From an uncultured bacterium (lineage in GTDB: Bacteria; Nitrospirota; Thermodesulfovibrionia; Thermodesulfovibrionales; CALJEL01), in assembly GCA_938074335.1 (NCBI GenBank), contig CALJEL010000047.1:1-51630 (forward strand): a stretch of DNA of 51,630 nt, given 5' to 3'. Shown here in pieces: positions 26,322 to 46,330 of this stretch. A program made the position numbers and the translations under genes. How positions within the stretch are numbered: the first letter of the stretch is position 1; the number at the start of each line of letters is the position of its first letter. The notes beneath the pieces are model-generated. The model was not told where the DNA came from. It saw nothing but the letters and a program-made list of their open reading frames with translations, and searched no databases.

Positions 26322-26349
26322 GTAGGGGCAATTCATGAATTGCCCCTAC
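26322..26349. repeat. 28-bp palindrome, GTAGGGGC-arm family
   Basis: A perfect 28-bp palindrome with arms GTAGGGGC/GCCCCTAC and centre AATTCATGAATT. It lies seven bases after the accA stop and may double as an mRNA 3' end for dnaE-accA. Sister copies with the same arms and different centres are at 31045-31072 and 32277-32304. Confidence 0.85.
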
Positions 26350-30954: not shown

Positions 30955-31365
30955 GCAGAAAACTGGCAGGTTCCCCAAAGTAGTGCGACACCATAGTGCA
31001 ACAGTGCGACAGTGCGACAGTAGCACAGACATTCTTGTCTGTGAGTAGGGGCGAAAAATTTTTCGCCCCTACAGTGCTACAGTGCGACAGCACACCTGAC
31101 GGTGAAGTGAGTTAGGGATTAGTGAATTAGTGAATTAGTGAATTAGGGAATTAGTGAATTAGTGAATTAGGGAATTAGGGAGTTAGGGAGTTAGGGATTA
31201 GTGAGTTAGTGAGTTAGTGACTTAGTGAGTTAGTGAATTAGTATTTTCTAACTCACTAACTCACTTGCATACTAACTCACTACTTTAGCTCACTTGCATA
31301 CTAATTCACTACTTTAGCTCTGTCGCTCTGTCGCACTAAAAGCTGTCGTTCTGTCGCTCTATCAA
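30955..31365. repeat. Large composite dyad repeat upstream of dnaE
   Basis: This gap of over 500 bases has no gene. In order it holds CCGGCAGAAAACTGGCAGG, octamers AGTGCGAC/AGTGCAAC (about 30975-31020), the palindrome CACAGACATTCTTGTCTGTG (31024-31043) and a 28-bp GTAGGGGC palindrome (31045-31072). Then come AGTGCTAC/AGTGCGAC and the boundary GCACACCTGACGGTGAAGTG. Fifteen AGTGAATT-type units at 31121-31239 follow, then TATTTTC. The opposite strand of the same words comes next (TAACTCAC, TTGCATAC, TACTTTAGC twice) and finally CTGTCGCT/CTGTCGCA octamers to about 31365. The two halves are roughly reverse complements, so the whole could fold into one long hairpin. Confidence 0.85.
31045..31072. 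repeat. 28-bp palindrome, GTAGGGGC-arm family
   Basis: Perfect 28-bp palindrome: arms GTAGGGGC/GCCCCTAC, centre GAAAAATTTTTC. It lies between octamer arrays, directly after CACAGACATTCTTGTCTGTG. Confidence 0.9.
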
Positions 31366-32217: not shown

Positions 32218-32410
32218 AATAGAGCAGCAGAGCAGTAGAGCCAGTAGCACAGACATTCTTGTCTGTGGCTTACTAAGTAGGGGCACGGCATGCCGTGCCC
32301 CTACTGCCGCACTGTCGCTCTGTCGCACTGTCGCTCTATCGCACTAAAAGCTGTTGCTCTGCTGCACTGTTGCTCTACTGCTCTATTATTGCCTGCTGCT
32401 CTAATGCTCT
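32218..32410. repeat. Composite dyad repeat between MNT and DUF488 genes
   Basis: The left arm is AGAGCAGC/AGAGCAGT octamers (32221-32247). The centre is CACAGACATTCTTGTCTGTG (32248-32267) and a 28-bp palindrome with arms GTAGGGGC and centre ACGGCATGCCGT (32277-32304). The right arm is CTGTCGCT, CTGTCGCA, CTATCGCA, CTGCTGCA, CTACTGCT octamers to about 32410, the reverse-complement class. The array separates two divergent transcription units. Confidence 0.85.
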
Positions 32411-35792: not shown

Positions 35793-38423
35793 CTAAACTG
35801 CCTCTGCCCAGTTTCTGCCTATCCCAATCTTGACAACAATGGGGACCTCAAGGGCAATAACAGATTCCATCTCCCTTTTAATAAGCTCCTTCACCTCTGA
35901 AAGCTCCTCTTCCTTTATCTCAAAGAGTAGCTCATCATGAATCTGAAGAAGCATCCTTGACTTAAACTCACCCTTCCTAAGCAGATTCCATATCCTTATC
36001 ATGGCAAGTTTTATAATATCAGAGGCTGTTCCCTGTATTGGAGAATTTATTGCAAGCCTCTCACCGAGACTGCGTGTTGCACTGTTTCTGCTTCTAAGCT
36101 CAGGAATGGGTCTTTTCCTTCCAAAGAGTGTCTCTGCATAACCCTTTTCTTCAGCTTTCCTTATAAGGGACAGGGAGCATTCCTTAATCGCAGGGTGTCT
36201 TATAAAAAACTGATCTATATAATCCTGAGCCTCCTGCTTTTCAATTCCAAGGGTCTCGCTAAGACCAAAGGCAGTCATTCCATAGATTATGCCAAAGTTC
36301 ACGGTCTTTGCGATCCTCCTTTGCTCGGGGCTCACCCTGTCTGGTTCAACACCGAAAAGTTCAGAGGCTGTGAGATTATGGATATCAATACCTTCCCTGA
36401 ATGCCCTGATAAATCTTTCATCTCCGCTCATATGGGCAAGTATCCTTAATTCTATCTGGGAATAGTCTGCAGAAAGGATCATAAAACCCTCTTCTGCTAC
36501 AAAGGCCTGTCTTATCCTCTCTCCCCAGACTCCACGAACAGGTATATTTTGAAGATTTGGCTCACTGCTTGATAGCCTTCCTGTTGCCGTGATCGTCTGG
36601 TTAAAGGAGGTATGGAGTCTTCCTGTGAGAGGACTGACAAGCACAGGCAGGGCATCCACATAGGTGGTCTTGAGTTTGAAGAGGGTCCTGTAATTAAGTA
36701 TCTCTCTGGGGAGTTCATGCTCATTGGCAAGCTCCTCAAGGACACTGAGTTCTGTGGAATATCCTGTCTTTGTCCTCTTTTTTGGTTTCAGTCCCAGCCG
36801 ACTGAAGAGTATCTCTGAAAGCTGTTTTGGTGAATTTATGTTGAATTCTCCACCCGCAAGGAAATATATCCTTGCTCTCAGAGTATCAAGGACATTTTCA
36901 AGTTCCTTTGAAAGGTCTTTAAGAATCGATATATCAATCTTTATGCCTGTCCTTTCCATATCAGCAAGCACCTTAACAAGGGGCATTTCTATCTCGTTAT
37001 AAATATTTACAAGACCAAGGTCTTCAAGTTTTTTTATGAGGATTTCATACAATCTCAACTTGCAGAAGCTATTCTGTGAAGAATACTTAATTAAAAGCTC
37101 TTCTCGTACCCCACAAAATCCAGAGATTTTGTGGGGACCCTTTTGCTGTGGTGAGGGAACAGCAGATATATCTTCCATGCCAAGCTTTTTGATACCTGGA
37201 TACTCTATACAGAGGTCATCAAGCAGATGATTGGGCCTCAGAGGATTAACAAGATAGGAGGCTATCTGAACATCTTCAAGCCTTCCTTCCAGTTCAATGC
37301 CGCAACTGAGAAGTGCTATTATGTCCTTTTTAATGTCATGGCTTATCTTCTGGCCCTCTGACATGAATAATGGTTTGAGTGCCTGTAAGTCCTTCATGTC
37401 ATTAATTGGTAGATAGTATACCTTCGAACCATCTGAATCAATCGGTATAACAGCTATCCCCTTAAAAAGAGGTGATAAAGGCTCACCTTCATAAAGAAGG
37501 TCAAAGCCAAAACCCCTCTCCACACCCGGTATCTCCATCACTTCCTGAGGAGCATCAAGTATAACTGTCTTTACCTCTAAGGTTACCGGTAAGAGTTTAA
37601 GAAGTTTTGAAAATTCACACTCCTTAAATATATTGAGAAGCTCATTCCACAGAGGCTCCTTTTTCTTAAGCTCTTCAGAGCTAATACTGATGGGGACATC
37701 TCTGTCTATCTTTGCAAGCTCATAACTGAGCTTTAAGATCTCCAGATTCTCTTCAATAAGTTTTCTCAATCTCTCTTTTTTAATTAATGAAGGGTTTGCT
37801 ATTATTTCCTCAAGCCTTCCATAATTCAGGACCTCAAGGCCGATCTTCTCACCAATGCCCTTTATGCCCGGTATATTATCAATTGTATCTCCAGCCAGTG
37901 CTATAAGTTCAGGTATCCTCCCTGGTGGCAATCCATATCTTTCCTCAACCGCCGAACTGTCATAAACTATATTTTTCATTGGGTCAAACATCTTTATCCT
38001 TTCATTAACCACCTGAAGGATGTCTTTATCACCACTTACAATGAATATCTCGTGGCCCCTGGACCTGAGCTGTTCTGCCACTGTGGCAAGGATATCATCA
38101 GCCTCATATCCAGGGATTTCTATAACCTTTATTCCAAAGGCCTCAACAATCCTTCTGATATAGGGGATCTGAACAGTCAGGTCATCTGGTGCCTTTGGCC
38201 TCTGTGCCTTGTATTCTTCAAAGGTCCTGTGTCTCCTTGTTGGCTCAGGACGGTCAAAGACAACAGCAATCCCATCCGGCTTTTTTTCATTGAGTATCTT
38301 AAGGAGCATGTTTGTAAATCCATAGATTGCATTGGTGGGAAGACCCTTTGAAGTGGAAAGGTCCTTTATTGCAAAGTATGCCCTGTAGATATAGGAGCTT
38401 CCATCTATGAGATAGATTGTCAT
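35793..38423 (-). CDS. polA: DNA polymerase I
   Basis: Repair and Okazaki-fragment polymerase, 876 residues. The 5' nuclease domain (LIDGSSYIYRAYFAI, VFDRPEPTRRHRTFEEYKAQ, YEADDILATVA, GDKDILQVV, GDTIDNIPGIKGIGEK) is complete. The middle 3'-5' exonuclease-like domain has lost the usual D-x-E start (it reads GFDLLYEGE), so proofreading is unlikely. The polymerase domain has motif A LSADYSQIELRI, motif B RRIAKTVNFGIIYG and motif C LQIHDELLFE. A palindromic repeat is inserted in frame between the exonuclease-like and polymerase domains (37109-37136, coding GPHKISGFCG). TATAAT lies exactly five bases before the ATG, with no ribosome-binding site. Confidence 0.96.
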   Translation of the reverse strand: MTIYLIDGSSYIYRAYFAIKDLSTSKGLPTNAIYGFTNMLLKILNEKKPDGIAVVFDRPEPTRRHRTFEEYKAQRPKAPDDLTVQIPYIRRIVEAFGIKVIEIPGYEADDILATVAEQLRSRGHEIFIVSGDKDILQVVNERIKMFDPMKNIVYDSSAVEERYGLPPGRIPELIALAGDTIDNIPGIKGIGEKIGLEVLNYGRLEEIIANPSLIKKERLRKLIEENLEILKLSYELAKIDRDVPISISSEELKKKEPLWNELLNIFKECEFSKLLKLLPVTLEVKTVILDAPQEVMEIPGVERGFGFDLLYEGEPLSPLFKGIAVIPIDSDGSKVYYLPINDMKDLQALKPLFMSEGQKISHDIKKDIIALLSCGIELEGRLEDVQIASYLVNPLRPNHLLDDLCIEYPGIKKLGMEDISAVPSPQQKGPHKISGFCGVREELLIKYSSQNSFCKLRLYEILIKKLEDLGLVNIYNEIEMPLVKVLADMERTGIKIDISILKDLSKELENVLDTLRARIYFLAGGEFNINSPKQLSEILFSRLGLKPKKRTKTGYSTELSVLEELANEHELPREILNYRTLFKLKTTYVDALPVLVSPLTGRLHTSFNQTITATGRLSSSEPNLQNIPVRGVWGERIRQAFVAEEGFMILSADYSQIELRILAHMSGDERFIRAFREGIDIHNLTASELFGVEPDRVSPEQRRIAKTVNFGIIYGMTAFGLSETLGIEKQEAQDYIDQFFIRHPAIKECSLSLIRKAEEKGYAETLFGRKRPIPELRSRNSATRSLGERLAINSPIQGTASDIIKLAMIRIWNLLRKGEFKSRMLLQIHDELLFEIKEEELSEVKELIKREMESVIALEVPIVVKIGIGRNWAEAV
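37109..37136. repeat. Palindromic repeat inserted in polA coding sequence
   Basis: CCCCACAAAATC and GATTTTGTGGGG form a perfect 12-bp stem with a four-base loop, 28 bases in total, within an open reading frame. In the protein it gives the hydrophilic stretch QQKGPHKISGFCGVRE between domains. A similar sequence (CCCAGAA..ATTTTCTGGGG) is intergenic at about 46170-46200. Confidence 0.75.
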
Positions 38424-38904: not shown

Positions 38905-39030
38905 AGTAGTGCGATAGCACACCTGACGGTGAAGTAAGTTAGGGATTAGTGAATTAGTGAGTTAGTGATTAGTGAGTTAGTATTTTCTAATTCACTAACT
39001 CACTTGCATACTAACTCACTACTTTAGCAC
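38905..39030. repeat. Composite dyad repeat after folK
   Basis: This copy has AGTAGTGCGATAGCACACCT, GACGGTGAAGTAAGTTAGGG, five or six AGTGAATT-type units, TATTTTC, and the complementary half CTAATTCACTAACTCACTTG and CATACTAACTCACTACTTTAGC, ending in CTGTCACTCT. It is a short version of the element at 31081-31365 with the same boundaries. No gene lies in 38905-39255. Confidence 0.85.
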
Positions 39031-39047
39031 TGTCACTCTATTAAGGA

Positions 39048-39161
39048 GGTAGCCGCAGGCTTCAGCCTATGTGGCGCAGGCTTCCAGCCTGCGATAAATG
39101 GTGGAAATACAAAAAACGCCTTCAACAGGCTGGAAGCCTGTTCTACCAGTTTGCGGCTACC
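39048..39161. repeat. Paired-hairpin (REP-like) element, copy 2
   Basis: Outer arms GGTAGCCGC/GCGGCTACC as in 34278-34348 but inverted and longer (114 bp). It contains GCAGGCTTCAGCC, CGCAGGC-TTCCA-GCCTGCG, the linker GCGATAAATGGTGGAAATAC with AAAAAACGC, and an extra hairpin ACAGGCTGGAAGCCTGT. Confidence 0.85.
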
Positions 39162-39182
39162 TACTTGCGATTGCCCTCAAAA

Positions 39183-39207
39183 GGGCAGGGGCAAGCCCTG
39201 CCCCTAC
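39183..39207. repeat. Short palindrome related to the GTAGGGGC family
   Basis: GGGCAGGG-GCAAG-CCCTGCCC followed by CTAC. Read on the minus strand it begins GTAGGGGCAGGG, so it shares one arm with the 28-bp palindromes but is less symmetric. Confidence 0.6.
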
Positions 39208-46165: not shown

Positions 46166-46330
46166 GTCGCAAGCGGGGTTCCCAGAAGATCGTTAGATTT
46201 TCTGGGGTTTAGTATTGCCTTTAGAGCACGAACTGAAGACAAGCTTCACCCCGTGAACCCCAAAATATCGGCATCCCCCGCCATTCCTATCGGCAGTTTA
46301 GGGAAATTTCTAATGGCAGATTACGGATAA
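46166..46330. repeat. Further palindromic intergenic sequence
   Basis: GGGGTTCCCAGAAGATCG and AGATTTTCTGGGGTT form an imperfect hairpin of the kind inserted in polA. GTGAACCCC pairs with the first GGGGTTC over about 80 bases. AAATTTCTAATGGCAGATTA (about 46309-46328) also occurs at the start of the orphan membrane-protein gene (40350-40370, minus strand). Confidence 0.6.

Follow-up and report, generated by a model that had tools for sequence, protein, structure and literature searches.

Short palindromic elements that occur both between and within genes have been described in several bacterial groups. The RPEs of Rickettsia are palindromes of 105-146 bp fused in frame in genes and, in a tested case, that of guanylate kinase, the enzyme is described as still active with an altered substrate affinity (PMC2229807). 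REPs with GTAG or CGTC tags are also recorded within genes of several bacteria, including those for DNA polymerase I and excision repair, and RPE-4 and RPE-6 have been equated with CGTC-tagged REPs (PMC3733652). Three Nitrospirota species are included in a table of the RepRanger paper.

Here, we describe a palindrome within the polA gene of an uncultured bacterium (genome G000), located in a stretch of 51,630 nucleotides that was analysed as a whole and is referred to as the window. We consider it very probable that this feature is the in-frame insertion of a dispersed, mobile-type palindrome of about 35 nt that resembles REPs and RPEs; this assessment concerns the insertion itself and excludes the step in which an HUH enzyme might take part. 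The features of the window on which the analysis is based are the following.

35793..38423, minus strand: polA, encoding DNA polymerase I (876 aa), intact and full-length by Pfam
Domains of PolA, in residues: 5'-3' exonuclease, 3-257; 3'-5' exonuclease-like, 331-412; DNA_pol_A (polymerase), 500-874
37109..37136, minus strand: 28-nt palindrome in polA, with a 12-bp stem and a 4-nt loop
37107..37141, minus strand: likely full 35-nt element in polA; on the coding strand, an AGGGT tag, the palindrome and TA
37107..37139, minus strand: PolA codons 429-439 (GPHKISGFCGV)
46180..46207 (about), minus strand: second family member of the window, degenerate, in a large intergenic mosaic with flanks ...TCGCAAGCGGGGT / ...GTATTGCCTTTAGAGCACG

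The palindrome at 37109-37136 (CCCCACAAAATC-CAGA-GATTTTGTGGGG) is a perfect inverted repeat, with 12 of 12 stem positions paired around a four-nucleotide loop, as the original prediction had described it. Its placement in frame at the junction of the exonuclease-like and polymerase parts of polA is borne out by the open reading frame and the Pfam matches; the encoded residues fall between the Pfam matches to the 3'-5' exonuclease (342-412) and DNA_pol_A (500-874). The peptide, which had been located around GPHKISGFCG, reads GPHKISGFCGV in full. As single-stranded DNA the palindrome folds at -13.4 kcal/mol (z of about -7), a value equalled by none of 200 shuffled sequences.

The original prediction had also proposed an alignment of PolA with close relatives. 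Forty relatives were matched and 29 of them were fetched and aligned; the peptide was absent from all 29, and none encoded the same residues in non-palindromic DNA. Between two anchors flanking the site, 21 of the 29 relatives are exactly 10 residues shorter, four are shorter by 11 and four by 14-24; 10 residues correspond to 30 nt, which is near the 28-nt length of the palindrome. The only other genome of the same genus, G001, has a PolA with 77% identity that is 21 residues shorter at the site and is one of these last four; the insert is missing from it and, by comparison with the other relatives, about 11 further residues as well. The mRNA segment around the palindrome is also strongly structured (-30.8 kcal/mol, z -3.4). 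The polA mRNA would carry a stable hairpin, which could be kept for regulation, for example in pausing or mRNA stability. Such an RNA-level role is distinctly unlikely to account for the feature, since the polA genes of relatives lack the hairpin and the other copies of the element, described below, are spread over unrelated genes, with differing positions and several reading frames.

Within its own genome, the exact 28-mer of polA occurs once, and a search allowing up to three stem mismatches returned 72 copies, with none in the reversed-pattern control, which argues against a chance palindrome. The repeated family has the form CCCCANAAAATC-N4-GATTTTNTGGGG together with an ACCCC/GGGGT tag. 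A genome search for the palindrome between genes and in other genes had likewise been suggested, and the family proved abundant between genes and present in no fewer than four further conserved genes. The majority of copies are embedded in a larger mosaic repeat that lies between genes and has constant flanks (...GGCAATACCAGCA-palindrome-ACCCCGCCTGCGACACCTTA...), and a minority stand alone. By a rough flank heuristic the division is 59 to 9 among 68 deduplicated copies, where the stand-alone set omits two copies judged by eye to stand alone (C98:27343 and C20:3335) and includes a weak match (L010:194); the 68 compare with 72-77 from the genome searches, some places not having been listed or fetched. 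Five stand-alone copies lie in long open frames, namely those of PolA, a GAF/GGDEF protein (L157), the B12-dependent ribonucleotide reductase NrdJ (L166), a YbgF/CpoB-like protein (L168) and an M56-like peptidase (L172). Other stand-alone copies are found outside long frames, such as a tandem triple with a period of 40-41 nt at C28. The assembly of G000 comprises 116 contigs, with some copies at contig ends, as might be the case if an assembly artefact or chimera had arisen at a repeat; the polA copy, however, is unique in sequence and lies mid-contig, and a single-contig genome, G012, shows like behaviour, so that an artefact has a vanishingly small probability.

A likeness in size and symmetry between the polA palindrome and the intergenic palindromes had been noted as well. 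One true family member of the window is at about 46180-46207; the other prominent intergenic palindromes, of the GTAGGGGC...GCCCCTAC type (26322-26349, 31045-31072 and 32276-32305), are unlike the polA family in sequence. The latter begin with a GTAG motif and are possibly conventional GTAG REPs. A further set of short, AGTGAGTTAGTGATT-like repeats is present at 38940-39200, on the downstream side of a gene identified by eye as folK-like, beside a repeat with segments caggcttcagcct and caggctggaagcctg.

Conservation defines a unit of about 35 nt, made up of an unpaired 5'-GGGGT tag, the 28-nt palindrome and TR-3'. On the opposite strand, conservation extends over YA, the 28 palindromic positions and ACCCC, and outside these limits it is near background, as measured by information content in 61 copies taken as lying outside large mosaics. 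The polA copy is off the family consensus in its loop, which is TCTG on the tag strand, and in its tag (AGGGT versus GGGGT); at the 3' end it has TA, within the family's TR. Among 84 genome-stem combinations, restricted to matches in which at least 9 of 12 stem positions pair, stem position 6 is AT in 50, GC in 23, CG in 2 and TA in 1, the remainder being unpaired, and AT and GC both occur at positions 5, 9 and 10. Such paired changes of the stem arms are those expected under a constraint on the hairpin. On the tag strand, GNNA loops, a type unusually stable in DNA, are found in 85 of 152 oriented copies, against 13 with TNNC (27 and 8 of 69 by distinct genome-loop pair). This polarity toward GNNA is suggestive only, the copies being related to one another and drawn in many cases from a single mosaic family. 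The loop of the polA copy is not GNNA.

Within the order, 18 of the 176 genomes searched carry copies with at most two mismatches, with a control of 0 in every row printed. When the tag is required, matches come from 10 genomes among 395 of the phylum, which are a sample of a larger group; nine of the 10 belong to the order and one, G371, to the same class outside the order. In three high-copy genomes (G041, G076 and G029), the core lies mostly within different repeats of their own. An exact-pattern scan of IMG/VR gave 0 matches, and carriage of the element by phages was rejected on the empty result of that scan.

These patterns also bear on a reading in which the palindrome functions as a DNA site, in chromosome organisation or as a regulatory operator, selected in polA and not mobile. 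The conserved core, its fixed flanks and the presence of up to 77 copies per genome would be compatible with a site bound by a protein. Yet the arms change together and not independently, relatives differ by insertion and not by substitution, and copy number among related genomes ranges from 0 to 77, with none in the same-genus G001; we therefore regard a selected, immobile site as highly unlikely, and the insertion of a dispersed element is the reading adopted in what follows.

The habit of lying inside genes is pronounced in two other genomes. In G012, 20 of 28 deduplicated copies are in stop-to-stop frames of at least 200 aa, as are all seven copies of G371; several of them, among these L178:4922 and L338 in G012 and L343, L346 and L347 in G371, are at or near protein ends and may be untranslated. 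The internal hosts in G012 are PheT, CarB, MnmA, CbiA/CobQ-like proteins, CbiG, a DUF1015 protein, an ABC ATPase, a helicase, Mfd and FdhA, together with an apparent histidine kinase that contains two copies. In G371 the hosts are Der, which likewise contains two copies, a Gfo/Idh oxidoreductase and a protein judged SMC-like by eye; in G011 the host is an SNase-family nuclease, and Mfd, a HemN-like protein and the C-terminal part of a tRNA synthetase are hosts in G068. Eight copies occur within 25 kb of G012 (C1:2272900-2297800; L177 and L178), in a cluster that spans cobalamin genes (a CobC-type phosphatase, CbiA, a CobD-like aminotransferase, CobQ and CbiG). The loops of these copies mostly differ, which indicates that they are not simple local duplicates.

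Four of the host proteins were aligned with relatives (27 for CarB, 27 for PheT, 29 for NrdJ and 22 for Mfd). The 14-aa insert of PheT is absent in all 27 relatives, and three PheT proteins of the same genus are each 14 residues shorter; the NrdJ insert, located in a variable linker, is absent in all 29. The CarB peptide is also absent in all 27 relatives, of which 23 are 24 residues shorter and four have unrelated extra residues at the site, and for this reason CarB is a poor single witness. Among relatives of the G012 protein (L233, L234, L235 and L243), this CarB loop holds differing extra residues in several genera; it is an insertion hotspot beyond the GGGGT-tagged element. In Mfd, the 17-aa insert is absent in 21 of 22 relatives, and the 22nd, from G068, contains a palindrome copy of its own that occupies the identical alignment position with another reading frame (KKSSDFLG versus SPKNREIFWG). 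That the G012 and G068 copies are read in different frames points to two separate insertions at a permissive site. Relative to solved structures, inserts were seen in MnmA, in the SNase-family nuclease (14 aa), in FdhA (14 aa), in the Gfo/Idh oxidoreductase (16 aa) and, as a pair of 14 and 17 aa, in the first G domain of Der (L344; G371, C110); the corresponding alignment of the ABC transporter did not resolve its insert. The Der inserts are close to motifs normally thought intolerant.

The net gain is 30 nt in polA and 42 nt in several other genes, and since these gains differ, the insertion footprint is not constant. DNA alignments of PheT, NrdJ and CarB with their nearest relatives were too diverged around the insert for its ends to be placed, and no target-site duplication was demonstrated in them.

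Dispersal of the family, its common tag, the covarying arms, homologues without the insert and a reading frame that continues through polA and many other genes of several genomes are all observed directly. From the translated frames, PolA and the other host proteins would be longer by about a dozen amino acids. Insertions into coding DNA would be expected to survive where the site is a permissive loop or linker and the frame is kept, and the palindrome tolerates coding DNA owing to its few stop codons: all six frames are open in 202 of 512 loop-by-stem variants, compared with 301 of 20,000 random 34-mers at 42% G+C. This six-frame openness may explain part of its life in genes. The PolA insert, situated in the linker between the exonuclease-like and polymerase domains, most likely has little or no effect on the enzyme. 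No role for the host is indicated, and the simplest explanation is that the insertion was parasitic or neutral and fell in a permissive linker.

As to the route of spread, the element, which we read as non-autonomous, may move as a single-stranded hairpin, perhaps mobilized by an HUH (Y1) transposase acting in trans, with the GGGGT tag used like GTAG in REPs or the guide sequences in IS200/IS605. Y1 genes are present in five of five element-positive genomes and in 25 of 36 negative ones. No Y1 transposase flanked by the element was found in the Y1 stretches read in G000 and G012: the borders of the one full-length RAYT-like gene seen in G000 (L169) carry another palindromic repeat, aacccgcacctcgtaggtgcagg, and a single copy of the GGGGT-tagged element lies in a mosaic just downstream, while the 3.5-kb stretch of the G012 Y1 gene holds no copy. 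A Y1 transposase as the demonstrated mobilizer was rejected, as its presence does not discriminate between positive and negative genomes and the borders of L169 are aacccgcacctcgtaggtgcagg. The RAYT-like Y1 gene with its aacccgcacctcgtaggtgcagg borders (G000 C63:5600-9100) forms a second candidate REP family of this genome.

Spread could also proceed with no transposase, if template switching, gene conversion or slippage copied the palindrome from intergenic mosaics into genes. This alternative concerns the route only, and it accords with the lack of a cognate transposase in the searches above, with the species-specific mosaics that hold the core in high-copy genomes and with the tandem copies of 40-41 nt period at C28. 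A recognized unit is nevertheless a better fit to the occurrence of the element, with constant tag and ends, alone at many unrelated sites and in many genomes. We hold transposase-free copying to be a serious possibility, somewhat short of probable, and overall give the HUH route and copying of this kind about even chances.

The insertion reading carries implications beyond polA. In some genomes the copies are mostly intragenic, and the host proteins include ones under constraints as tight as those on Der, PheT and PolA. Since there are same-genus genomes without copies, insertion sites and effects on enzymes can be compared before and after insertion, and the base for such comparison is 19 positive genomes (18 in the order and G371). 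The question raised is which enzyme, if any, moves the GGGGT-tagged hairpin. A broader proposal is that the family constitutes a third, GGGGT-tagged class of REP-like elements, with the interiors of essential genes as its main habitat in some genomes, that is mobilized as single-stranded DNA by a putative HUH enzyme and has repeatedly supplied core enzymes (PolA, Mfd, Der, PheT, CarB, MnmA and NrdJ) with short peptides; we put this forward tentatively, at rather less than an even chance. A literature search on the lineage and palindromic elements did not find a GGGGT-tagged family, which is weak evidence of novelty; the view in the original prediction that such a process would be new for this lineage was not contradicted by that search.

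Among known systems, the element shares with RPEs (PMC2229807, PMC3733652), and with the Wolbachia palindromic elements, as these are described, the occurrence of a palindrome both in intergenic DNA and, in frame, within conserved protein genes. The analogy to RPEs drawn in the original prediction thus stands for behaviour (dispersal, intergenic and in-frame copies, housekeeping proteins and several reading frames) and breaks down for length and tag, as the element is about 35 nt long with a GGGGT tag and comes from another lineage, whereas RPEs are given as 105-146 bp (PMC2229807). It resembles REPs in being a hairpin of the 20-40 bp class with an unpaired tag at one end, compensatory changes in the arms and some intragenic copies, but its tag is neither GTAG nor CGTC, and REPs are characterized as mostly intergenic in contrast to the share of copies in long frames in G012 (20/28) and G371 (7/7) (PMC3733652). 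Like the GTAG or guide sequences of RAYT/TnpA-REP and IS200/IS605 systems, as outlined for these, a short sequence lies directly 5' of the stem (PMC8266576); unlike in RAYT/REPtron systems, no tnpA-REP gene flanked by the GGGGT-tagged element was found at the Y1 genes of G000 and G012. PARCELs are similarly palindromic DNA that encodes peptide in frame, but are presented as intragenic tandem repeats, whereas copies of this element are mostly single (PMC2996958). MITEs, which have terminal inverted repeats of an IS and a target-site duplication, are larger (70-300 bp versus about 35 nt); in the DNA alignments described above, no such duplication was demonstrated. The element is a separate palindrome family that fits the general description of RPEs and REPs and is set apart from both by its tag and from RPEs by its length.
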